This document shows, piece by piece, positions 1-13,268 of a stretch of 21,467 bases of DNA. Origin of the DNA: a virus; the IMG/VR virus record IMGVR_UViG_3300006844_000049, positions 1 to 21,467 of that record; one strand, 5' to 3'. The translations under genes and the position numbers were made by a program. Numbering within the stretch: the stretch's first letter is position 1; the number at the start of each line of letters is the position of its first letter. A model generated the notes under the pieces. That model did not search any database. It saw only the letters and a list, made by a program, of their open reading frames with translations, and had not been told where the DNA came from.

Positions 1-1128
1 GAGGCCGGCAAGAGTCGCCTGGGCTACGGGACGAAGAGCGGGAAGGAAGAGACCCGCGCCGCGTCCGCGAACCTCGCGGCCGCCGAGCGTGCGGTGCAGG
101 AGGCGAAGCCCGCGAAGGGGCTGCGCCCGAGTGCCGGTCGCGCCGTGCTGCATCCCGGCGAGTTCACGCCCGAGGAGCAGCAACTCATCGAGGACATCCT
201 GAAGAAGCCCGGCACGGTGCGGCCGGATTTCAGTCAGAGCGAGAAACTCTACGAGCAGGGCAAGTACGGCCAGAACTTTTACCACGACATCCCGCCGGTG
301 TTTGAGCGGCGCCTCCAAGATCCGCGCGACGTGCAGCAGGCGATGAAGTACCAGACCTCTGGCGCGCTGGGCTCCGAGCCGCGCGCGCAGGCCGAACTCG
401 GCCTGGAAGCGTTCCTGCGGGAGAAGATGGGCCGGCCGCTCAGTCACGACATTTTCGAGGTCGCGAAAGATCCGAAGACGGGCAAGGCCTATGCGGTGGA
501 CGCGAAGCTGCGGAACGCGATGCTGGCGCAGTTCGAATCGATCCGCCAGGGGGGCTTCCCGTCGGGGCCGAAGATCACACCCTACGGGTTCGCGATGGGC
601 GGCGACCCGACCAAGTACCCGATGGTGCGCGACCCGTCCGCGTACGTGATGGACCGGCACATGTGGGACATCCACTACGGGCCGTACGCGGCCACGTTGC
701 CGGAACGCTTCGACCCGAAGAAAGGCGTGATGCGGCCCACGACGGGGCGCGACCTGGAGACGGACGTGCGGCGCATGCTGACGACGCATGAGGGGCGCGA
801 GCGCGCGAAGGGGATGGGCATCGAGGCCGGGCAGTTCCAGGCCGGCCAGTGGTACGGCAAGCGCGGGCAGCGCGGTCCCACCGAAGAGGTCTCGATGGCT
901 GACATGATCGTGAACGCGATTCGTCGGCGCCCCGATGAGTTCGCGAAGATCCCCGGCTGGACTCGGCTGAACGAGGACGGGCAGGCTGAACTGGTGACGA
1001 AACTGTTGATGGCCGGCGGCGCCGGGGCCGCGATCATCGCGAACGCGGTGCGCCGGTCGCAGGAGGCGCCGGCCGAGGCCGAGCCCGAGGGCGAGCCCTC
1101 GATGGCGCGGAAGGTGTTCGGCCGATGA
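1..1128 (+). CDS. 3' part of a phage protein with a 'DRHM' (DUF7178-like) motif, partial
   Basis: The frame is open from base 1, so the true start lies upstream; the GTG at 94 is only an internal candidate. The visible 375 residues are hydrophilic with many charged helices. A segment encoded at about 560-665 reads GPKITPYGFAMGGDP, then about ten residues later DRHMW. This recalls the 'GxKxxxFxxNLxGDxxxVxxDRHM' signature of phage DUF7178-like proteins, which I also find reminiscent of helix-hairpin-helix glycosylase-like folds; that is recollection, not a search. Near the C-terminus is a short hydrophobic stretch (LLMAGGAGAAIIANAV), followed by an acidic Pro/Glu tail ending SMARKVFGR. The stop overlaps the terminase start by four bases (ATGA, 1125-1128), so the two genes are probably co-translated. 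It could be the end of a large virion or ejected protein; no function is assigned. Coding is secure; identity is weak. Confidence 0.8.
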   Translation, partial: EAGKSRLGYGTKSGKEETRAASANLAAAERAVQEAKPAKGLRPSAGRAVLHPGEFTPEEQQLIEDILKKPGTVRPDFSQSEKLYEQGKYGQNFYHDIPPVFERRLQDPRDVQQAMKYQTSGALGSEPRAQAELGLEAFLREKMGRPLSHDIFEVAKDPKTGKAYAVDAKLRNAMLAQFESIRQGGFPSGPKITPYGFAMGGDPTKYPMVRDPSAYVMDRHMWDIHYGPYAATLPERFDPKKGVMRPTTGRDLETDVRRMLTTHEGRERAKGMGIEAGQFQAGQWYGKRGQRGPTEEVSMADMIVNAIRRRPDEFAKIPGWTRLNEDGQAELVTKLLMAGGAGAAIIANAVRRSQEAPAEAEPEGEPSMARKVFGR

Positions 1129-2105
1129 GCGACCCCGTCACGCACGTGCCGGCCATCGTGCCGCCGGATGCGGACGAGATCACGCGCGGCGTGTGGCAGT
1201 GGGACGTCGCAGCCGGCGCCCGCGTGATGGCGGTCGGCGTCCAGAGTGATCCCGCGAAGGACTCGCAGGCGTGGTGGGACGCGCAGCGCGCGACGATGCC
1301 CCCCTACGAGTTCCTGCGCGAGTACGGCATGGACTTTGGGGCGTACGCGGGCAAGCCCGTGTTCCCCGAGTACCAGGACCGGTATCACGCCGCGACGCGC
1401 GCGCTGGCGTACGCGCCGAACCGCGTGCTGGTGCGCGGGTGGGACATTCCGGGGCCGGTGGGCGTGGTCTGGTTGCAGCGCGTGCATCTGAAGGCGTTGG
1501 GCCATCACGGCACCGAGTACGACGGGCTCGCGCGCATCCACGTGCTCGCGGAGTTCTTGAGCGACGGCTCGATCGAAGCAGCCGGCCAGGCCGTGCTCGC
1601 GAAGACAGCCGAAGAATTCCCGGGCGCGACCGAGATCGTGGACTTCGCCGATCCGGCGGCGTTCGACCGGCGCGCGAACGACACGCAATCCTGCGCGGAC
1701 ATCCTGCGCCGGGCGTGCGGGATTCATCTGCGCCCCGGGCCGCGCACGCTGACCGAGCGCCATGAGCCCCTGCGCCGGGCGTTGATGGGCATGATGCCGA
1801 ACGCGGCGCCGGGCGAGCCCCCGGGTGCGTTCCTGCTCGATCCCGGCTGTCCGCGGCTGAAGGACGCGCTGCGCTCGGCGTACCACTACAAGCCCCTGCC
1901 GGGGCCGCAGGCGCGCTACCACGATCTGCCCGAGAAGAACTGGGCGTCCCATTTAGCGGACGGGTTGACGTACGGGGTCGCGATGCTGGACTCGGCGAGC
2001 CTGTCGCCGGTCGACGTGATGCGGCCGAGCCTAGAGCCCCTGGAGTTCGCGCACGCGGTCGCGAGTTATCCCTCGCACCGGAACGGGGACGCGCGATGGC
2101 GGTAA
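1125..2105 (+). CDS. Terminase large subunit, nuclease (RNase H-like) domain only
   Basis: The 326-residue product matches the C-terminal half of phage large terminases, which cut concatemeric DNA during packaging. Residues 40-89 carry the usual linker pattern: a DPAKD element, EFLREYGMDF, then GKPVFPEYQDRYH. The nuclease core follows: first-strand aspartate in VRGWDIPG (D107), a second acidic site in EIVDFADP (D173/D176), and a third in SHLADGLTYG (D279), in the spacing expected for the three metal-binding acids. There is no Walker A or B motif, so the packaging ATPase must be a separate gene upstream of the window. The start is ATG in an ATGA overlap with the previous gene, and the end overlaps the portal gene by ten bases. 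The codon before the HLAD alanine is TTA, rare here. Function is well supported; the split state is read directly from the sequence. Confidence 0.87.
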   Translation: MSDPVTHVPAIVPPDADEITRGVWQWDVAAGARVMAVGVQSDPAKDSQAWWDAQRATMPPYEFLREYGMDFGAYAGKPVFPEYQDRYHAATRALAYAPNRVLVRGWDIPGPVGVVWLQRVHLKALGHHGTEYDGLARIHVLAEFLSDGSIEAAGQAVLAKTAEEFPGATEIVDFADPAAFDRRANDTQSCADILRRACGIHLRPGPRTLTERHEPLRRALMGMMPNAAPGEPPGAFLLDPGCPRLKDALRSAYHYKPLPGPQARYHDLPEKNWASHLADGLTYGVAMLDSASLSPVDVMRPSLEPLEFAHAVASYPSHRNGDARWR

Positions 2106-4132
2106 CGTGGGCCGCGCGCGGGACGCAGGCTGCGCCGCCGGTGTCGTCGACCGGCCACGGGCGCCTGCTCGCGTTGGTGCGGTCGCGCCGGCAGGCGTCC
2201 GAGCAGGCGATGAGCCGGCTGCATCCCTCATGGAAAGCGGCCGATCGCATCTACCGGCACTACGTCGATCCGAGCCAGGTCGACAAGGACGGCAAGCGGC
2301 TCTACCCGTGGGCGCGGGACATCGTGGTGCCGCTCACGTTCGCGATCGTGCAGACCCAACTCGCGTGGGAGATGACGGCGTTCACGCAGCGCACGCCGAT
2401 CGTGCCGTTGGATGGCGTCAGCCCCGAGGACGTGAAGCCGGCGAAGGTCATGGAACAGGTGCTCCAGCATGAGTGGAGTGGCGATAAGATGTCCCTCTCC
2501 CTGTACCAGTGGCTGCTCGATCGGCGCCGCTACGGGGTGGGCATCGTCTGGACGAACTGGGTGCGCGACGCCACGCGCCAGTACGTCGAGGAACCGCAGA
2601 CGATCGATCTGCCCCTGCTCGGCATCTCGCTGCCGATGGGCACCAAGAAGGTCTGGAAGGATCGCGTGCGCTACGAGGGGAACCGGCTGGAACCGGTGGA
2701 CCCGTTCACGTTCTACCCGGACCCGCGCGTGCCGATCGGCAAGGCCCACAAGGGTGAGTACGTGGGCTACCGCGTGCAGCGCCACTACAACGAACTCCTC
2801 CTGATGCAGCGCGACGGGCAGTACGCGAACGTGGAGGATATCCCGAAGGGCCGGCGCGCGTCGCGGAGCGGGTTCGCGAACGACACCTTTGGCCGCACGA
2901 TCGGGTCATCCGGCCAGCCGGCCGTCGCCTCCAGTGGTCCCGCGCTGGGCGCGTGGCTCTCGTCCGTGGGCGTCGACTCCCAGCAGGGCCAGGACGGCGG
3001 CACCGTGGACGTCGACGTCTTCGTCATGCGCGTGGTCCCGAAGACCTACGAACTGTCCGGGGAGACCGCGCCCCAGAAGTACGTCGTCGTCGTCGCGAAC
3101 GACGCGGTGATCATCCGCGCGAAGCCCTACGAGTACGACCACGACGAACTGCCAGCGGCCGTGATCGAACTCACGCCCGATCAGCACGTGTACTCGACCC
3201 CGGGCGTCGTCGAGCACATCGAGGACTTGCAGGACTACCTGTCCTGGTTGTGGAACTCGCACGCGGCCAACGTGCGGAAGACCTTGAACAACCAGTTCCT
3301 GGTCGACCCGTCGCTCGTCGAGATCGCGGACCTCTTGCAGCCGCAGCCGGGGCTCTTCGCGCGCCTGCGTCGCGAAGCGTGGGGCAAGCCCGGCGCCCTG
3401 GAGGCCGCGCTCAAGCAGTTCCCGGTGGTCGACGTGACGAAGTCGCACTTTCAGGACATGGACAGCGTCATCAACATGATCCAGAGGGTTGCCGCCGCGC
3501 CCGAGAATCTCCAGGGCATCCTGATGGCCGGCGACCGCACGCTGGGCGAGCAGCAGATGGCCGTCTCGGCCGCGCAGGGGCGCCTGAAATTGGAAGCGCA
3601 AATGGCGTGGTTGCAGGGCATGACGCGCGTCACGCATCAGCGCATCTCCAACATCCAGCAATTCATGTCCGAGGACCGGTGGATTCAAGTGCTGGGCACG
3701 TACCCGCGCGCGCTGGGCCTGATGGCTGACACGCGGTTCCTTCGCGTGGGACCGGACGAGGTACAGGGCCAGTTCACCTACAGCCAACCGGACATGGTGG
3801 TGCGCCAGGACGAGAAGATGCTGATGGCGCTGCGCGAGATCTTCATGGCCGTCGCGAAGGAACCGGAACTGCGGCAACGCTTCGATCTGGTGAAATTGTT
3901 CGAACCGGTCGCGCGCCTGGCCGGCATCACCAACATCGACGACTACGTGCGTGAGATGCCGATGGCCGAGGGCACGGTGCCGATGCCGGGCGCGCCATCG
4001 GTGGGGATGCCGGGCGCGGGGGGTGGGACGCCGCCGGGGATGCCCCCGCAGCAGGGGCCGATGCGTCCGCGCGTGATGCCCGACAACGACGTGATGCAGC
4101 AGGTTCAGAACGGGAATCTGGTGCCGGCGTGA
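2096..4132 (+). CDS. Portal (head-tail connector) protein
   Basis: This 678-residue protein should form the dodecameric ring at one capsid vertex through which DNA enters and leaves. The features fit podovirus-type portals: an N-terminal helix with WKAADRIYRHYVD (46-58), then YPWARDIVVPLTFAIVQTQ (70-88), TQRTPIVPLDG (98-108), and the wing segment LYQWLLDRRRYGVGIVWTNW (136-155). DPFTFYPDPRVP follows near residue 202, before a long, mostly helical C-terminal half. The last 60 or so residues are Met/Pro/Gly-rich (PMPGAPSVGMPG, GMPPQQGPMRPR), a low-complexity tail. Its position right after the terminase and before a scaffold and capsid gene is the classical order. The ATG start lies inside the terminase gene, and the stop overlaps the next gene in GTGA. 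Length is in the upper range for portals of short-tailed phages. Confidence 0.9.
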   Translation: MAVTWAARGTQAAPPVSSTGHGRLLALVRSRRQASEQAMSRLHPSWKAADRIYRHYVDPSQVDKDGKRLYPWARDIVVPLTFAIVQTQLAWEMTAFTQRTPIVPLDGVSPEDVKPAKVMEQVLQHEWSGDKMSLSLYQWLLDRRRYGVGIVWTNWVRDATRQYVEEPQTIDLPLLGISLPMGTKKVWKDRVRYEGNRLEPVDPFTFYPDPRVPIGKAHKGEYVGYRVQRHYNELLLMQRDGQYANVEDIPKGRRASRSGFANDTFGRTIGSSGQPAVASSGPALGAWLSSVGVDSQQGQDGGTVDVDVFVMRVVPKTYELSGETAPQKYVVVVANDAVIIRAKPYEYDHDELPAAVIELTPDQHVYSTPGVVEHIEDLQDYLSWLWNSHAANVRKTLNNQFLVDPSLVEIADLLQPQPGLFARLRREAWGKPGALEAALKQFPVVDVTKSHFQDMDSVINMIQRVAAAPENLQGILMAGDRTLGEQQMAVSAAQGRLKLEAQMAWLQGMTRVTHQRISNIQQFMSEDRWIQVLGTYPRALGLMADTRFLRVGPDEVQGQFTYSQPDMVVRQDEKMLMALREIFMAVAKEPELRQRFDLVKLFEPVARLAGITNIDDYVREMPMAEGTVPMPGAPSVGMPGAGGGTPPGMPPQQGPMRPRVMPDNDVMQQVQNGNLVPA

Positions 4133-4509
4133 ACCCCACGCGCGAGTTCGACGTGGACCCGGCTGTCGCGGCCGAGATCGCGCGGCGCCGGGCCGAGGAC
4201 GACGAGCGCGCGCGCGCCGAGCAGTTGCTGAGTGATGCGAGCGCGCTGGAACGGCTGTCGCAGTACCCGGAGTGGGCCGTGCTGGATCGCGTGCTGAAAA
4301 CGCACGCGAAGCACGTCGCACAGGCCCTGCGGCAACGCGGGCTCGGCGCGCTGGAGACCGAAGCCCTGCGGGCTGAACTGGACGCGATCGAGTGGCTGCG
4401 GTATCGTCCGACCGCGTTGAAGAAGGCCCTGGAAGACCGTGAGGCGATGGTGAAGTCGCAGCAGGAGACCGAGCATGGCCGACGACACAGTTTCTTCCCC
4501 GACGCCTGA
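4129..4509 (+). CDS. Small charged helical protein between portal and scaffold
   Basis: A 126-residue protein begins with GTG in a four-base GTGA overlap with the portal stop. It is almost wholly charged and helical, with runs such as ARRRAEDDERARAEQ and ALKKALEDREAMVKSQQE and no membrane segment or signal peptide. The middle (SQYPEWAVLDRVLKTHAKHV) may be a folded helical bundle. Its 3' end overlaps the scaffold gene by 35 bases in another frame. Small coiled-coil proteins often sit here in phage head operons and may help assembly, but I do not recognise a family. Codon use (G/C-ending codons in this frame) supports a real gene. Confidence 0.75.
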   Translation: MNPTREFDVDPAVAAEIARRRAEDDERARAEQLLSDASALERLSQYPEWAVLDRVLKTHAKHVAQALRQRGLGALETEALRAELDAIEWLRYRPTALKKALEDREAMVKSQQETEHGRRHSFFPDA

Positions 4510-5518
4510 GTCCGCGCCCGCGGTCGCGCCCGAGGCGCCGCCCCCGGTCGCCCCGGAGACGCCCCCGTCGCCGGCCCCGGAGGCCACCCTCGACGAACGG
4601 TCGGTGCCCGAGGAGTCGATGTGGACGCGGATGCGCGACCAGGTCGGCACCGCGCCCGAACCGGACGAGCCCGCGAAACCCGAGACGCCGCGCGCGCCGC
4701 GCCGCGAGCCCCGCGCCCCGGCACCGGCCGCGCCCGAGGCGCCCGGCCCGAAGAAGTGGGCCGGTCGCTTTGAGTCGCCCGAGGCCCTGGAGACCGCGTA
4801 CGGCGAAGCCGAAACCGCGCGCACGCGGGCCGAGACCGAGCGCCAGCGCGCGGCCGATGCCGCCGACCGGCTGGAGCGTCTGCTCCAGGCCGCGTGGCGG
4901 GAGCGCGAAGCCACGCCGAGCCCGGCCGCGACCGGCGCCGCGCCGCGCCCCACCGAACTGTCGGAAGCCCTCGCCGCGGTGAACAACGAACTGCAACTGC
5001 TCGCGGTGGGCGATCCGCAGGGCGACACGCTGCGCCTGGTGCGCGCGGTCGCGTGGGCCAGCCAGCAGGACGCGGCCTCCCGGCGCGCGTACGCGGACGT
5101 GGCTCTCTCGGAATACGATGCGCGCGCCTCGCAAGCCGCGGAACTGGAGACGCTGCGCCAAGCCTTCTACACGCAGTACCCCGACGTGAAGTCCGCACCG
5201 GAGTCCCTCCTGCGCCAAGTGGCGCTGGACGCGGAACGCGCGATGCGAGCGACGCGGTCGGATTACGGAACCCCGCAGTTCATGCGCGACTGGTTCGCGG
5301 AGACGGCTCGGATCGCCCGCACGCAACTTCGTCTCAGTGACGGAGTGCCTGCCGCGCCCGCGCCGCCCGCGAACCCTGCTCGCCCGGCCCCGGCGACGCC
5401 GGCCCCGAGATCCGCCAAAGTGGCGGCACCCTTCTCGGAAGCCCCGTCCTCGCGTACGGACGAGCCGGTGCTCACCGGCCAGGACAAGTACCTGGCCCGG
5501 GTGTTCGGGCCGCGATGA
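4475..5518 (+). CDS. Probable capsid scaffolding protein
   Basis: The 347-residue protein has the look of a phage scaffold: low-complexity Pro/Ala/Glu-rich ends around a helical centre. Residues 1-90 are built of degenerate PEAPPP/APETPP-type runs. Then comes KKWAGRFESPEALETAY (about 93-109), close to the 'aGKFksvEELekAY' motif seen in many podovirus scaffolds, followed by a predicted coiled coil (about 104-145: AETARTRAETERQRAADAADRLERL). A second helical region at 165-285 is followed by another Pro/Ala linker and a conserved-looking tail, TGQDKYLARVFGPR. Scaffold C-termini usually contact the capsid protein (family knowledge). Position directly before the major capsid gene supports the role. 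The start overlaps the previous gene by 35 bases. Alternative: a minor head protein. Confidence 0.77.
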   Translation: MADDTVSSPTPESAPAVAPEAPPPVAPETPPSPAPEATLDERSVPEESMWTRMRDQVGTAPEPDEPAKPETPRAPRREPRAPAPAAPEAPGPKKWAGRFESPEALETAYGEAETARTRAETERQRAADAADRLERLLQAAWREREATPSPAATGAAPRPTELSEALAAVNNELQLLAVGDPQGDTLRLVRAVAWASQQDAASRRAYADVALSEYDARASQAAELETLRQAFYTQYPDVKSAPESLLRQVALDAERAMRATRSDYGTPQFMRDWFAETARIARTQLRLSDGVPAAPAPPANPARPAPATPAPRSAKVAAPFSEAPSSRTDEPVLTGQDKYLARVFGPR

Positions 5519-5582: not shown

Positions 5583-6953
5583 GTGCCGCCATTTCAAGGT
5601 CTACGCGGAACGAATAGTTTCATCGCTGACGCCCGCCCGAAGAACTGGCGGGAGGGCGTGTTGCGCTTGTACCCGAACGGGGGCGCGGTGCTCACCGCAC
5701 TCTCGGCCCTGCTGGAAGCCGAGCAGACCTCCGACCCCGAGTTCAACTGGTGGGAGAAGAATCTCGGCACGCGTGAGGTGTACACCGCGGGCGGGAACGC
5801 GACGGATACCACCTCCAACCTCACGGTCTCGGCCGGCCCGGCCGGGGCCGGGTCTCCCGGCCCGCTGCTGCGGAAGAACTACATCCTGATGTCGACCGGC
5901 ACCGGGGGCACGGGCGAGAAGATGCTGGTCCTCGCGGACCAGACCGGATCGGGCCTCGTCGTCAACGTGCAGCGCGGATTCGGGGAGACCGCGAAGGCGA
6001 TCATCCCGGCTGACAGCACGCTCCGCGTCATCGGCAACGCGAACGAGGAAGGCGCGCCACTCGGCACGCCGGTCGCGACCGATCCGATCAAGCAGTTTAA
6101 CTATACGCAAATTTTCCGGACGCCGCTGGCGATCACGCGCACGGCGAAGAAGACGCGACTCCGCACCGAGGACGCGATCGTCTCGGCGCAGATCGAGGCC
6201 CTGGAAAACCAGGCGATCGACATGGAGTTCTCGTTCCTCTTTGGCGAGCGTCTGGAGACCACGGGCTCGCTCGGCCAGCCCCTCCGCACCACGCGGGGGC
6301 TGGTGAAGTGGATCGAACTGCTCGCGCCGGGCAACGCGATCACGGTCGCCGGGGCGGGCAGTGTCACCGAGGCCGAGTTCCTCACGGCGATCGAGCCGAT
6401 GTACCGGTACGGCAGCAGTGAGAAACTCTGGCTGTGCGGCTCGACGGCCCTGATGGCGCTCAACGCCATCGCGCGGCAGGGCTCGGTGCTGAACATCGAG
6501 GCCGGCGACGACGTGTACGGGATGCGCCTCCGACACTTCGTCACCACGTTGGGCGATGGCTATTTGAGAATGCACCCGCTCTTCAACATGTACCCGGACT
6601 GGCGGAAGATGATGCTCATCATCGACCTCCCGTTCATCAAGTACCGGTACATCGACGACTTGATGTACTTGGAGCACAGGCAGAACCCGGGCGAGGACGC
6701 GCAGAAAAATGAGTTCCTCGCCGAGTGCGGGTTCGAATTGCACTTTCCGCTGGCGCACGGCATGATCCGCAACCTCGCGGCCGCGACGCCGACGGTCGCG
6801 CGCACGGCGACGGTCGATGCCCCGGAGCCAGCGAAGTTCCAGTACGGCGTGGTGGGACCGGAGACGCCCGAACTGCCGGCCGGGCAGCCTCCGCAATTCG
6901 GCCAACTCATTCCGGGGCGCACGTCGCAGCCGTACACGGCCCCGGGTCGCTGA
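5583..6953 (+). CDS. Major capsid protein, SU10/DUF5309-like
   Basis: The 456-residue product would assemble the icosahedral shell in an HK97-type fold. Family-like features: an N-terminal segment with NWREGVLRLYPNGGAVLTAL (21-40), the aromatic motif FNWWEKNLGTREV (54-66), a beta-rich insertion with NVQRGFGETAKAIIPADSTL, the central FNYTQIFRTPLAITRTAKKT (about 172-191), and a spine helix IEALENQAIDMEFSFLFGER. A further motif is the C-terminal-half stretch around IDDLMYLEHRQNPGEDAQKN. These recall the SU10-type major capsid proteins (DUF5309); no search was run. A Pro/Gly-rich tail of about 40 residues closes the protein. The start codon is GTG behind a strong ribosome binding site. No separate decoration protein is evident unless one of the small downstream ORFs serves that role. 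Confidence 0.92.
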   Translation: MPPFQGLRGTNSFIADARPKNWREGVLRLYPNGGAVLTALSALLEAEQTSDPEFNWWEKNLGTREVYTAGGNATDTTSNLTVSAGPAGAGSPGPLLRKNYILMSTGTGGTGEKMLVLADQTGSGLVVNVQRGFGETAKAIIPADSTLRVIGNANEEGAPLGTPVATDPIKQFNYTQIFRTPLAITRTAKKTRLRTEDAIVSAQIEALENQAIDMEFSFLFGERLETTGSLGQPLRTTRGLVKWIELLAPGNAITVAGAGSVTEAEFLTAIEPMYRYGSSEKLWLCGSTALMALNAIARQGSVLNIEAGDDVYGMRLRHFVTTLGDGYLRMHPLFNMYPDWRKMMLIIDLPFIKYRYIDDLMYLEHRQNPGEDAQKNEFLAECGFELHFPLAHGMIRNLAAATPTVARTATVDAPEPAKFQYGVVGPETPELPAGQPPQFGQLIPGRTSQPYTAPGR

Positions 6954-8052: not shown

Positions 8053-8309
8053 TGGGGACGAGTCCGATCCCGGTCGCGCATACGCCGCCGCTGGCGGGCG
8101 CCGCGTGTCCCGATCCGCGCTGGGTCGCGAATCGCGCGTGCTGGATTCAAGGCGTCGAGAACATGGTGGGGCCGCGCTGGGTGATCATGCTCGGCCCGGG
8201 TGGCTATGGGCCGGGACCGGCCCCGCCGATTCCGCCGACGCCGCCGACCGTGCTGCCGGCCGGGCCGGAAGGCAGCATCCCGTATCTCGATGATCTGACC
8301 ACGCCATGA
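8052..8309 (+). CDS. Small proline/glycine-rich protein ahead of the fibre gene
   Basis: An 85-residue protein of unknown function, coupled on both sides: its ATG shares one base with the adaptor stop (TGATG), and its stop overlaps the fibre start as ATGA. Residues 1-47 hold a compact segment with two Cys and several Trp (CPDPRWVANRACWIQGVENM, RWVIMLGPGGYG). The rest is a Pro-rich linker (GPGPAPPIPPTPPTVLPAGP) ending in a short acidic stretch. There is no signal peptide or clear membrane helix. It may be a fibre-attachment or baseplate-like peptide; this rests only on position. Confidence 0.68.
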   Translation: MGTSPIPVAHTPPLAGAACPDPRWVANRACWIQGVENMVGPRWVIMLGPGGYGPGPAPPIPPTPPTVLPAGPEGSIPYLDDLTTP

Positions 8310-11053
8310 GTGGCCCGCCCGATCGGATGCGCGTGGCGTGGCTCGGGCCGACGGTGCCCGGCGCGTTGCTCATGCTCGGCGCGCCGGCCATCCGGCCGAC
8401 GTGGCTCGCACCCGGCGCGCCGGGCACCGTACTGCGCACCGAACCCGGGGGCTCGCTCGGCTGGGTGGTGCCGTCCGCGGCCGCGCTGCCGATCACGACG
8501 CCCGGGGATCTCATCGTCGGCGACGCGAGCGGGTCCGCAGCGCGGCTCGCGCGGGGTGAGACGGGGCAGTCCTTGCGCGTCGAGCCCACGGGCCTGCTCG
8601 ACTGGTACACGCCCCCGTCGAACCCGATGATCGGCGCGGGGGATCTTATCGTGGGATTGGCCGGGGGCGTGCCCGACCGGCTCGCGCCTGGAGCATCGAG
8701 CCAGGTGCTCACCGTGGTGGGCACGGCGCCCACGTGGGTCACGCCCCCCGCGCCCGGCATGCCGAATCCCATGTCGCAGGCCGGGGATCTCATCCTGGGC
8801 GGCGGCGGGGGTACACCCACGCGACTCGGCATCGGCCCCGACGGGTACGTCCTGACGCTACTCGGCGGGATGCCGGCGTGGCGCGCGCCATCCGGGGGCA
8901 CCGGTGGTGGCGGCACCATGGACAACCCGATGACGGCCGTCGGGGATCTCATCGTGGGCAGTACGGCCGGTGACCCCGTGCGGCTCCCCATCGGCACGGC
9001 CGATCAGATCCTGAGTGTCAACGCGACCGGCCAACCGATCTGGCGCACGCTCACGGCCAGCGAGGTGCTCTCGGGCGAGTGGACGTGGCTCGCGACGCCG
9101 ACAGCCGGCCCGCCAATCGCCGAGGGGCAGATCGCGTTCGACAACATCGCGACCCCGACGACGGTGGTCGCGGCCGTGATCAACGGGACCGGCGTCGACA
9201 CGTCGCAAGTGTTCCTCGCGTTGCAGGATGGCGACAGCATCTACATTCAAGACCAGAGCAACTCGACGCGCTGGCGCCGGCTGCGCGTGACGGGCATCGC
9301 GACCGTGGGGAGCGGCGCGGCCGTCATCCCCGTCGTCGAGTACGGCGCGACGCAGGGCGCCGATTTCACCGACGCCGAGACCGTCCAGGTCGCCATCGGG
9401 CTGACGACGTCAGCCGGCAGCGCGCTGTCGAATCCGATGACGACGCTGGGGGATCTCATCGTCGGGGCAGCGTCGGGCGTACCGGGCCGGCTCGGCGTGG
9501 GGACCAACGGGCAGGTGCTCACGCTCGCGAGCGGGGTGCCCGGGTGGCAGGCGCCGATCGGGTTCGCGAATCCCATGGTCGCGGCCGGGGATCTGATTGT
9601 CGGGGCCAGTGGGGGGCTCGCCGGCCGGCTCGCGATCGGCGCCGACGGCGCGGTGCTCACGCTCGTCAGTGGCGTTCCCACGTGGGCCACGGGCGCGGCC
9701 GGTCTCACGTGGCCGCTGCTCGCTCCCGATGGGCTCTCGACCGCGCCGAGTTATAGCTTCGCGTCCGCGCCCGCCGTCGGGCTGTTTCTCAGCGGGACGG
9801 ATCTCGTCCTCACGGCCGATGCGGGGCGCGCGCTGCGCTTCACCAGTGGTGGGGCCGCGCGCTGGGTGATGGACGTGGCCGGGATGCTCACGCCGGCTGT
9901 CGATGGCGCGAGCGACGTGGGCAGCGCCGCGCTACGCGTGCGTGATCTCCATCTCTCGCGGCAGACGGTGTACGCCGCGCTCGGCGGCGCCCCCGTCACG
10001 CCGGCTGCCGGAAAGCTGGCGCTCTACGGCAAGAACGACAAGCGTCTCTACGTCAAGGATGACGCGGGGCTCGAAACCCTCCTGGGCGCGGGGCTGGTCA
10101 ATCCGATGACCGCGCCCGGCGACCTCATCACGGGGGGCACCGCGGGGGCGCCCACACGGCTCGCGATTGGCGCGGCGAATCAGGTGCTCACGGTCATCAG
10201 TGGGGTGCCGACCTGGCAACCGCTGACGGCGCTGACGAATCCGATGATTGCGGTGGGCGATCTGATCGTGGGGGGCGCGAGTGGCGCCCCGACACGGCTC
10301 GCGGCGCCGGTCACGGGCCAGGTGCTGGCGTCAGCCGGGGTCGGAGTCGCCCCCGTGTGGTCCGCGAGCCCGACGCTCACGTCGCTCGTCAGCCCGATAG
10401 TGGACTTCCCCACAGGGACCGCGCCCGCCACGCCCTCGGCCAACCGCGTCCGTCTCTACGCGAAGACCGACAAGAAGCTGTACCAGAAGGACGACGCGGG
10501 GGTCGAAACCCCGCTGGGCGGGGGCGGGGGTCCGACGACCGAGGTTCTCCCGATTGTCCAGGCAGACCTCCCCGATGGCACGGGTACGCAGAACGCGCCC
10601 CCGGTTTTCCAGCGATGGGTCGGGACGGCACCCCGGGCGGGGTTTCCGAAGATCACGCGCACCGTCGCCTGGTTCGACCCGGCCATCCGGCAGTTTCTGA
10701 TGTGGACGCGAATGCTGCCCGCCAATTATGGGTCGGGTGGGGCGCTGCGGCTCAAGTGGTACATCCAAAGCACGGCGGGCGACGTGTACTGGCTGGTTGG
10801 CGCGTGGCCGACGAGTGATGGGGTCGCCGAAGGGGCGAACACTTGGAGTTGTGTTGGGACCAGCATCGTGCCGGTGAGTAGTGGGGGCACCTACGTCATC
10901 CGCGAGACGCTGATCTCTCTTAGCCCCACCACCGAGTTAGCGGCTAACCGCGAGGTCTGTTTCTCGGTCGGACGCGCCAGCGACGCTATCGAAGACACGG
11001 CAGTCGATATTGCCATTTTGGTCGCGGCTCGATTCGAGTACACCCCGGCATGA
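8306..11053 (+). CDS. Large tail fibre protein built from GDLIVG-type repeats
   Basis: The 915-residue product is a modular fibre. Residues 63-250 hold four copies of a 40-48 residue unit (NPM..xGDLIVG...G.P.RL..G..GQVLT...G.P.W). A roughly 120-residue beta domain (about 252-372: GEWTWLATPTAGPP, LQDGDSIYIQD) interrupts the array. Two more units follow at 376-463, another spacer with SDVGSAALRVRDLHLS, a LYGKNDKRLYVKDDAG module, two more units at 599-688, and a second LYAKTDKKLYQKDDAG module. The C-terminal 170 residues look like a beta-sandwich receptor-binding or trimerisation domain (MLPANYGSGGALRLKWYIQS, ending FEYTPA). Such proteins are homotrimers that contact the host surface. Translation is coupled by ATGA at the start. 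GC falls clearly in the last 300 bases, suggesting the tip was exchanged. Confidence 0.88.
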   Translation: MSGPPDRMRVAWLGPTVPGALLMLGAPAIRPTWLAPGAPGTVLRTEPGGSLGWVVPSAAALPITTPGDLIVGDASGSAARLARGETGQSLRVEPTGLLDWYTPPSNPMIGAGDLIVGLAGGVPDRLAPGASSQVLTVVGTAPTWVTPPAPGMPNPMSQAGDLILGGGGGTPTRLGIGPDGYVLTLLGGMPAWRAPSGGTGGGGTMDNPMTAVGDLIVGSTAGDPVRLPIGTADQILSVNATGQPIWRTLTASEVLSGEWTWLATPTAGPPIAEGQIAFDNIATPTTVVAAVINGTGVDTSQVFLALQDGDSIYIQDQSNSTRWRRLRVTGIATVGSGAAVIPVVEYGATQGADFTDAETVQVAIGLTTSAGSALSNPMTTLGDLIVGAASGVPGRLGVGTNGQVLTLASGVPGWQAPIGFANPMVAAGDLIVGASGGLAGRLAIGADGAVLTLVSGVPTWATGAAGLTWPLLAPDGLSTAPSYSFASAPAVGLFLSGTDLVLTADAGRALRFTSGGAARWVMDVAGMLTPAVDGASDVGSAALRVRDLHLSRQTVYAALGGAPVTPAAGKLALYGKNDKRLYVKDDAGLETLLGAGLVNPMTAPGDLITGGTAGAPTRLAIGAANQVLTVISGVPTWQPLTALTNPMIAVGDLIVGGASGAPTRLAAPVTGQVLASAGVGVAPVWSASPTLTSLVSPIVDFPTGTAPATPSANRVRLYAKTDKKLYQKDDAGVETPLGGGGGPTTEVLPIVQADLPDGTGTQNAPPVFQRWVGTAPRAGFPKITRTVAWFDPAIRQFLMWTRMLPANYGSGGALRLKWYIQSTAGDVYWLVGAWPTSDGVAEGANTWSCVGTSIVPVSSGGTYVIRETLISLSPTTELAANREVCFSVGRASDAIEDTAVDIAILVAARFEYTPA
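8492..9054 (+). repeat. Fibre repeat array I, four units
   Basis: GDLI-type cores begin at 8504, 8639, 8783 and 8942 (spacing 135, 144 and 159 bases). A degenerate fifth copy lacking the GDL core can be read just upstream (about 8390-8480). The DNA around each core is close to GGGGATCTCATCGT. Confidence 0.88.
9431..9693 (+). repeat. Fibre repeat array II, two units
   Basis: Cores begin at 9449 and 9587 (138 bases apart), each opened by Asn-Pro-Met and closed by a G.P.W element. The array is separated from array I by an inserted beta domain. Confidence 0.87.
10019..10086 (+). repeat. KDDAG module, copy 1
   Basis: It encodes LYGKNDKRLYVKDDAGLET. It is closely matched at protein and base level by a second copy at about 10453-10520, each after a linker with Thr-Pro and an alanine-rich turn and each followed by Leu-Gly. 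It is a common fibre spacer module. Confidence 0.72.
10100..10369 (+). repeat. Fibre repeat array III, two units
   Basis: Cores begin at 10118 and 10256 (138 bases apart), with the same Asn-Pro-Met opening and a GAPTRLA segment in both. The second unit has a slightly longer closing turn (GVGVAPVW). Confidence 0.87.
10453..10520 (+). repeat. KDDAG module, copy 2
   Basis: It encodes LYAKTDKKLYQKDDAGVET and pairs with the copy at 10019-10086. A glycine run follows and leads into the C-terminal receptor-binding-like domain. Confidence 0.72.
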
Positions 11054-11987: not shown

Positions 11988-13268
11988 ATGCTGCGACCGA
12001 AGCTGAACCTCGTCATCCAAGATCCATCGAGCGGGCGCGCGCGGCCGGGCGCGTGGGTGAGCATCTACCTCGCGAACACGTTCGCGCTCGCGCCGTGCTA
12101 CGCGGACGACGACGTCACCACCATCGGGAATCCGATCCAGGCGAACGCGCTCGGCCAGGTCGCGGTGCGCGTGCCGATCGGGCTCTACGACGTGTCAGCC
12201 ACGTACGACGGCACGACGCCGGTCACGATCGAGGACGTGGTCGCGTGGACCCCGGACGACACCACGGTCCAAGAGCCAGGCGAGATCATCGTCGGCGGGC
12301 CGGATGGCGCGCCGGCCACGCTCCCGCCGGGCGACCCGGGGCAAGTCCTGGGCGTGCTGCCGGGGACGCCCCCCCAGGTCGGGTGGGTGACGATGGCGCC
12401 CGGCCAGGGGCTCCCCGCGGGCGCGCAGGGGGGCTTGCTCCACTACCCCGCTACGGACACCCTCGCCCCGCTGCCGATTGGCGCGGCAGGGCAAATCCTC
12501 GTCGTCAACGCGGGCCTGCCGACGTGGGGCACCCCGGCCGGGGTCGGGATCGTCATCCCGATCAACCAGCCTGGGGATCTCATGGTGGGGGACGCGGCCG
12601 GGGCGCCGGCCCGTCTCGCCCGCGGCGCGACGAGTCAGGTGCTGACGACGCTCGCATCAGGGCTGCTCGGGTGGGGACCGGCCGGCGCGGCGTCGATCGT
12701 CACCACACAGGGCGACCTCATCGTCGGGGACGCGTCAGGCGTGCCGATTCGGCTCCCGCGAGGGAGTGACGGGCAGACGCTGCGGACGAGTTCGGGGGGC
12801 TTCCTAGAGTGGGTGACGCCCCCCGTTGAGCGCACGCTCCATTTCGACAAGGACATCGTCAACTCCAACCAGACGACTGCCGAGCAGACGCTGAAGAACT
12901 ACGTGGCGCCCCCGAACACGCCGCCGCTGAACAATGACCGGCTGCGGGTCCGCGCGCGCGGGAACATGTACACCGACGGCAGCACCAAGAAGGTGCGGCT
13001 CTACTATGGGCCGACGATGCTCGTCGAACTCTCGACGGCCGCGAACGGCTCGTACTGGGCAATGGAAGTGGAGATTCTCCGCATCGCGGTGACCTCGCAA
13101 CGCTCCAACGCCGTGATCCTCGTCGACCGGCAGTACCCCGAAGTGTCCAACGTGGTCATGGCCGTCGACATGGGCGTGTCGCAATCGATCCGCCTCGCTG
13201 TCGCCACGTCGAACAACCCGAACCGGGTCACCATCCAGCAGTTTGAGGTCCGCTGGCTGCCGGCCTAG
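11988..13268 (+). CDS. Second tail fibre/tip protein with GDLIVG-type repeats
   Basis: This 426-residue protein starts behind GAGGGAGA (11973-11980). Residues 1-85 form a carbohydrate-module-like beta domain (NLVIQDPSSGRARPGAWVSIYLAN, QANALGQVAVRVPIGLYDVSATYDG), typical of fibre N-termini that attach to the virion. Residues 97-278 hold four copies of the repeat found in the large fibre: two degenerate and two good (INQPGDLMVGDAAGAPARLA, TTQGDLIVGDASGVPIRLP). The C-terminal 140 residues are a beta-sandwich (DRLRVRARGNMYTDGSTKKV, RLYYGPTMLVELSTAANGSY, ending FEVRWLPA) like tip domains of other phage fibres. It is likely part of the adsorption apparatus, perhaps alternative to or stacked on the large fibre. 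Confidence 0.83.
   Translation: MLRPKLNLVIQDPSSGRARPGAWVSIYLANTFALAPCYADDDVTTIGNPIQANALGQVAVRVPIGLYDVSATYDGTTPVTIEDVVAWTPDDTTVQEPGEIIVGGPDGAPATLPPGDPGQVLGVLPGTPPQVGWVTMAPGQGLPAGAQGGLLHYPATDTLAPLPIGAAGQILVVNAGLPTWGTPAGVGIVIPINQPGDLMVGDAAGAPARLARGATSQVLTTLASGLLGWGPAGAASIVTTQGDLIVGDASGVPIRLPRGSDGQTLRTSSGGFLEWVTPPVERTLHFDKDIVNSNQTTAEQTLKNYVAPPNTPPLNNDRLRVRARGNMYTDGSTKKVRLYYGPTMLVELSTAANGSYWAMEVEILRIAVTSQRSNAVILVDRQYPEVSNVVMAVDMGVSQSIRLAVATSNNPNRVTIQQFEVRWLPA
12279..12822 (+). repeat. Fibre repeat array IV, four units, shared with the large fibre
   Basis: Good cores begin at 12573 and 12711 (138 bases, the same period as in arrays II and III). Two degenerate units precede them (GEIIVGG at 12279; GAAGQILVVNAGLPTW near 12480). 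The base sequence at the cores is nearly the same as in the 8.3-11 kb gene. Confidence 0.8.

Follow-up and report, generated by a model that had tools for sequence, protein, structure and literature searches.

In nearly all tailed phages, the DNA-packaging motor is a single protein. The virus record IMGVR_UViG_3300006844_000049, a linear 21-kb contig that makes up the entire window analyzed here (21,467 nucleotides), raises a different possibility. Its large terminase (TerL) gene, at 1125..2105 on the plus strand, encodes the nuclease part of TerL without the ATPase core. Where, then, is the ATPase half? The first-pass annotation of this DNA had proposed either separate, non-adjacent ATPase and nuclease proteins or a gene inserted between the halves. 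Only 1.1 kb lies upstream of the nuclease gene and the window is the whole viral contig, so that the upstream half falls off its left edge and the question is answerable only through relatives. These carry an ATPase-half gene, a block of unrelated genes of ~1.0, 2.7, or 4.5 kb, and a nuclease-half gene, in agreement with both proposals. We assign a probability of about 0.85 to the reading that the window gene is one of two genes jointly making the large terminase, the other lying ~4.45 kb upstream, and that the two proteins reassemble into a TerL-like motor.

The nuclease gene and its ATPase partner

The window gene starts with ATG and encodes 326 amino acids, predicted to form a lid-like N-terminal region followed by an RNase H-type nuclease domain. 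Its product matches PHROG 2 (TerL; phrog_2) at profile positions 427-600 of 807 only, which is the C-terminal half (E 3.6e-6), and the nuclease-half profile A5 matches amino acids 221-485 of a single-chain relative, L081 (E 3.5e-15). A Walker A motif was found neither in this open reading frame (ORF) nor in the preceding one, which has no family match either, so that the annotation was right in denying both an ATPase motif. The nuclease active-site stretch (1443..1961, plus strand) contains D107 (1443-1445), E143 (1551-1553), and D176 (1650-1652), which are invariant in all 11 nuclease sequences compared, single-chain TerLs among them (alignments A4/A5), and are also kept across the wider family alignment. 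D279 (1959-1961), listed with D107 and D176 as an expected metal-binding acid, is not invariant: its column holds Asp in most members and Asn in five (L025, L026, L138, L139, and L141). Together, the phrog_2 match and the conserved acids point to an RNase H-type nuclease domain with acidic metal ligands. The gene has a 96% identical counterpart in L004/L005 and is under purifying selection (pN/pS 0.10, L005 versus the window).

The missing half was located on L006, which is 100% identical to window positions 1-1370 and extends 5.8 kb further upstream (L002 and L003 are the same virus as the window, at 99.9%). Here, behind a TerS-like gene that resembles DUF5681 (E 1.5e-5, just short of the Pfam cutoff), stands an ATPase half at L006:1677-2480 whose stop lies 4,453 nt before the nuclease start. 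L006 and the 96% identical L004/L005 share the order TerS-like gene, ORF of 263-267 amino acids, gene block, nuclease ORF, and SU10-type portal. The 263-amino-acid ORF matches phrog_2 at 280-402 with an E value of 0.0096, weak taken alone; this stretch is complementary to the 427-600 matched by the nuclease half. Its AlphaFold model (pLDDT 70.6) has T4 gp17 as best match (Foldseek E 1.5e-5; Z 11.2 in structure comparison, where large terminases fill the first 23 rows). The upstream ATPase-only ORF that the annotation expected, with Walker A and B, is thus present with a Walker B and coupling motif (LADEFGTW, SSA), as in an ASCE ATPase domain, but without a canonical Walker A. At residues 118-126 of the L005 protein, the P-loop has the form KxRRMxx[ST]W or a near variant, lacking the usual glycine or GK[ST]. 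ATP binding by this family is presumed despite the degenerate P-loop. Pfam and NCBIfam scans of the ATPase half gave no TerL model above cutoff, which explains why annotation pipelines miss it. Purifying selection is also evident on this half (pN/pS 0.32, L005/L006). A zinc-ribbon-like Cys insert at residues ~70-93 of L005:2721-3509 is found in ATPase halves of the window lineage only, not in other family members.

Is there another terminase elsewhere in such a genome? The L005 record (46,353 bp) has a terminal direct overlap of 159 bp with 99.4% identity and so very probably represents a whole circular genome of ~46.2 kb. When all six of its frames were searched with five TerL profiles, one ATPase half and one nuclease half were found, and no further TerL. 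A phrog_2 search of virus records gave no match and missed the known half too, so its blank result was given no weight. In bacterial genomes, profile A1 had no matches and profile A6 had some. By their profile matches, the halves are homologous parts of TerL (phrog_2 superfamily); being separate genes, they are filed as TerL parts and not as a canonical single-chain TerL.

A probable breakpoint between ATPase core and lid

The ATPase half aligns with T4 gp17 over residues 101 to 307/313 in structure comparison and with residues 4-207 of the ~251-residue P74-26 ATPase domain, stopping ~50 residues short of the ATPase domain end. The second part of the gp17 small subdomain (the lid) we take to be about residues 314-360. 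On the other side, ~66 residues precede the nuclease domain in the window protein, which aligns from about residue 11 on with the single-chain L081 from amino acid 221. From this we infer that the cut falls between the ASCE core and the lid, and that the N-terminal ~66 amino acids (1125..1322, plus strand) comprise the lid subdomain and hinge, kept together with the nuclease on the window protein. The earlier description of a nuclease domain alone was correct about the missing ATPase core, while the cut lies earlier than the domain boundary. A cut at this place keeps in one chain the lid-hinge-nuclease lever on which T4 translocation depends. T4 ATPase and nuclease domains lacking the hinge were wholly unable to translocate (PMC9958956), and a core-lid cut with an intact hinge unit is consistent with that finding.

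In the mechanism we propose, the upstream gene would supply the ASCE ATPase core (Walker B, coupling motif, and degenerate P-loop) and the window gene the lid, hinge, and nuclease. The two proteins would come together at the portal without a covalent bond, the lid of one docking in trans onto the ATPase core of the other, to reconstitute an ordinary TerL motor from two chains. ATP-driven DNA translocation and cutting by such a two-chain terminase are predicted. The gene has been cut or rejoined several times at one place, with other genes inserted there in some lineages.

The family was surveyed by a scan with L081, a single 507-amino-acid TerL in which the ATPase half matches amino acids 7-209 (E 3.7e-30) directly ahead of the nuclease-half match. 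Single-chain forms were found in L126-L132 and L150. Two adjacent genes, with gaps of -35 to +2 nt, occur in L133-L136, L138-L140, L152, and L153, and L154 is an adjacent two-gene form cut by the contig end. Separated genes occur in the window lineage, in the distant L141 (2,133 nt) and L143 (231 nt), and in L151 (176 nt). In the window lineage the ATPase and nuclease are on separate polypeptides, and the stop-to-start gap is 0.96 to 4.49 kb (L005, 4,488 nt; L006, 4,453 nt; L026, 2,652 nt; and the divergent L014, 955 nt). All breaks in the family fall at L081 amino acids ~207-232, a confinement that random error does not explain. Single-chain and two-gene forms are interleaved on three trees (both halves together and each apart), as when two-gene L136 groups with single-chain L128 (support 100/89/99), indicative of at least five to six changes between the two states. 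Programmed frameshifting is conceivable for the adjacent forms but not for those with widely separated genes. Among more distant nuclease relatives (75 loci, 25-33% identity), every one whose 5' end can be seen encodes a single chain. We regard it as moderately probable that the family has a natural breakpoint at the core-lid boundary, where the gene is cut and rejoined again and again and where other genes insert, and that the resulting motors are two-chain hetero-oligomers.

One single-chain TerL (L137:3-2558) carries a ~320-amino-acid in-frame insert in its nuclease domain with a LAGLIDADG_3 domain (E 2e-7), likely an intein.

Several points weigh against a reassembled two-chain motor. Association of the halves and DNA packaging by them, most likely as they are, are argued from synteny, conservation, and the absence of an alternative. 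The lid assignment draws on the ATPase model and sequence profiles, the nuclease model having a pLDDT of 48.7; a fold search with the latter returned no TerL, as expected from such a model. The canonical GK[ST] P-loop is absent in 22 of 22 family members, single-chain ones included, and L150 additionally lacks the Walker B Asp. Some deep tree nodes are weakly supported. Finally, the hinge-less T4 domains lose translocation, though the cut was elsewhere there.

Alternative explanations and the genes between the halves

Could the split serve regulation or tuning, with the parts produced at unequal levels or swapped among phages? The nearest database TerLs of the halves do differ. The ATPase half matches KARQ-type ATPases only (E 1.6e-17 versus 0.15) and the nuclease half a podoviral group only (E 4.7e-30 versus 0.07); as each group was picked from the matches of one half, only the blank cross-cells are informative. 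Leave-one-out controls of these discordance profile tests were mostly normal. The genes between the halves are also variable. However, this ATPase/nuclease combination is already present in single-chain L081; the mosaic thus arose before the split, and a recent chimera made by the split was rejected. ATPase-only and nuclease-only trees are, moreover, broadly alike for the main clades. We consider this explanation unlikely. Meiothermus phage MMP7, tried as a carrier of an ATPase-only terminase, was rejected, its gene being cut by the record's origin; the deposited MMP7 genome, MK071653 (L045/L049), was opened inside terL, which left TerL annotated as two pieces.

Rejoining of the halves into one TerL chain by an intron, intein, split intein, or trans-splicing is less probable still. 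TerL is a common home of introns, with spliced terL genes in ICP1 and CB7 (PMC10448857, PMC7344957), and the L137 insert places a LAGLIDADG element within the family itself. However, no intron was detected in the gaps by Rfam, and inspection of the junctions revealed no intein or split-intein sequence; the annotation had named an intron or intein as what would overturn its view. The ATPase ORF ends 2-3 residues past its conserved region, too soon for an IntN to fit, and inspection showed no IntC ahead of the nuclease. The nuclease gene begins at a start codon of its own, which overlaps the stop of the preceding gene (ATGA), and the gap genes are conserved under purifying selection (pN/pS 0.17-0.56). 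No homing endonuclease was recognized in the gap.

The content of the gap differs by relative. L005 and L006 hold, among others, a protein with a PEP-CTERM sorting signal (PF07589 and TIGR02595 above cutoff; L005:4464-5213, L006 ~3226-4116), which is uncommon in phages and hints at a Gram-negative host with an exosortase. The inserted gene at L026:2203-3297 encodes an ART-PolyVal domain (PF18760, E 2.6e-13), which occurs in polyvalent proteins that are believed to be delivered together with phage DNA, and DUF7178-like inserted proteins occur in L017 (E 9.2e-9) and, under cutoff, in L013.

Very improbable is a leftover or auxiliary nuclease in a phage that packages with another, complete TerL. 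The window alone, which has no ATPase half, would allow it, but the five profiles found no second TerL in the complete circular relative, an ATPase half belonging to the same TerL family stands upstream, and the strongly conserved nuclease gene directly precedes the portal gene. An assembly error or chance frameshift is hardly credible: although every member comes from a metagenomic contig or a draft genome and the two genes of adjacent forms overlap in differing frames, the same layout recurs in contigs of several independent metagenomes and in the circular genome when related genomes are surveyed as the annotation had advised, adjacent-form breaks all fall within the same short zone, and the window-lineage gap holds 1-4.5 kb of genes.

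Genomic context, known split systems, and significance

The SU10-type portal gene (2096..4132, plus strand; PF23899, E 3.1e-20) directly downstream of the nuclease gene is, by sequence, the context of a normal packaging module. It is followed on the same strand by a scaffold-like gene (4475..5518), so called from its position before the major capsid protein (MCP) gene and a motif scan, and by the SU10-type MCP gene itself (5583..6953; PF17236, E 3.4e-37). The order TerS-like gene, ATPase half, other genes, nuclease, SU10 portal, and MCP matches the TerS-TerL-portal-scaffold-capsid layout. Upstream, the final gene of the intervening block (1..1128, plus strand) has its 5' end off the contig, found no family match in profile scans, and is under purifying selection (pN/pS 0.17 versus L005). 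Its product ends in SMARKVFGR and the scaffold-like protein in YLARVFGPR; a motif scan found A[RNQ]xVF-like motifs near the ends of inserted proteins in L013, L014, L017, and L026. These ends are possibly a shared procapsid-targeting signal. Farther downstream, 8306-11053 and 11988-13268 encode long proteins in which a repeat of the type GDLIVGxxxGxPxRLxxGxxGQVL occurs many times; they probably serve as tail fibres or decoration proteins.

How does this terminase compare with known systems? A split TerL as such is already known from Arthrobacter cluster AY phages (e.g., BillyTP, PP978841), where the ATPase and nuclease domains are encoded in consecutive genes (PMC11920828). As in the window lineage, the two parts are separate genes; unlike there, the cluster AY genes are consecutive and overlapping, with an ATPase gene of 359 amino acids, a nuclease gene of 198, and a cut probably after the lid rather than before it. 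BillyTP halves gave no profile match to the halves of the window family, which is thus not of the cluster AY type. T4 gp17 has, judging from the model, the same ATPase fold as the ATPase half (Z 11.2), but is one chain whose covalent hinge is needed for DNA translocation (PMC9958956), against two chains here. The podoviral TerLs of Rollin, Hodr, MEP301, and BcepC6B have a nuclease homologous to the nuclease half (profile E 4.7e-30) but are made as one chain, and their GPxGSGK[ST] ATPase shows no match to the ATPase half. In the herpesvirus terminase gene UL15, the parts are likewise separated by other genes and are rejoined by mRNA splicing, a sign of which is absent here. Another essential phage enzyme made as two chains is the NrdA of Aeromonas phage Aeh1, a case of genes in pieces whose chains associate post-translationally (as cited in PMC7344957); as described there, it was split by a homing-endonuclease insertion, the like of which was not recognized in our gap. 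Open-access literature on split terminases yielded cluster AY only, most subscription papers being outside this scope. As far as these collections and that literature show, the novelty lies in where the chain is cut, in the recurrence of that seam, and in the separation of the halves by kilobases of unrelated genes.

Models of the packaging motor take it as a working assumption that ATPase and nuclease are coupled in a single chain, and T4 experiments support this. A TerL family broken between ASCE core and lid indicates which connection is dispensable, and it offers natural parts for two-component motors. If the breakpoint family and its two-chain motors are real, covalent coupling of the ASCE core to the lid would be unneeded for one of the strongest known biological motors.
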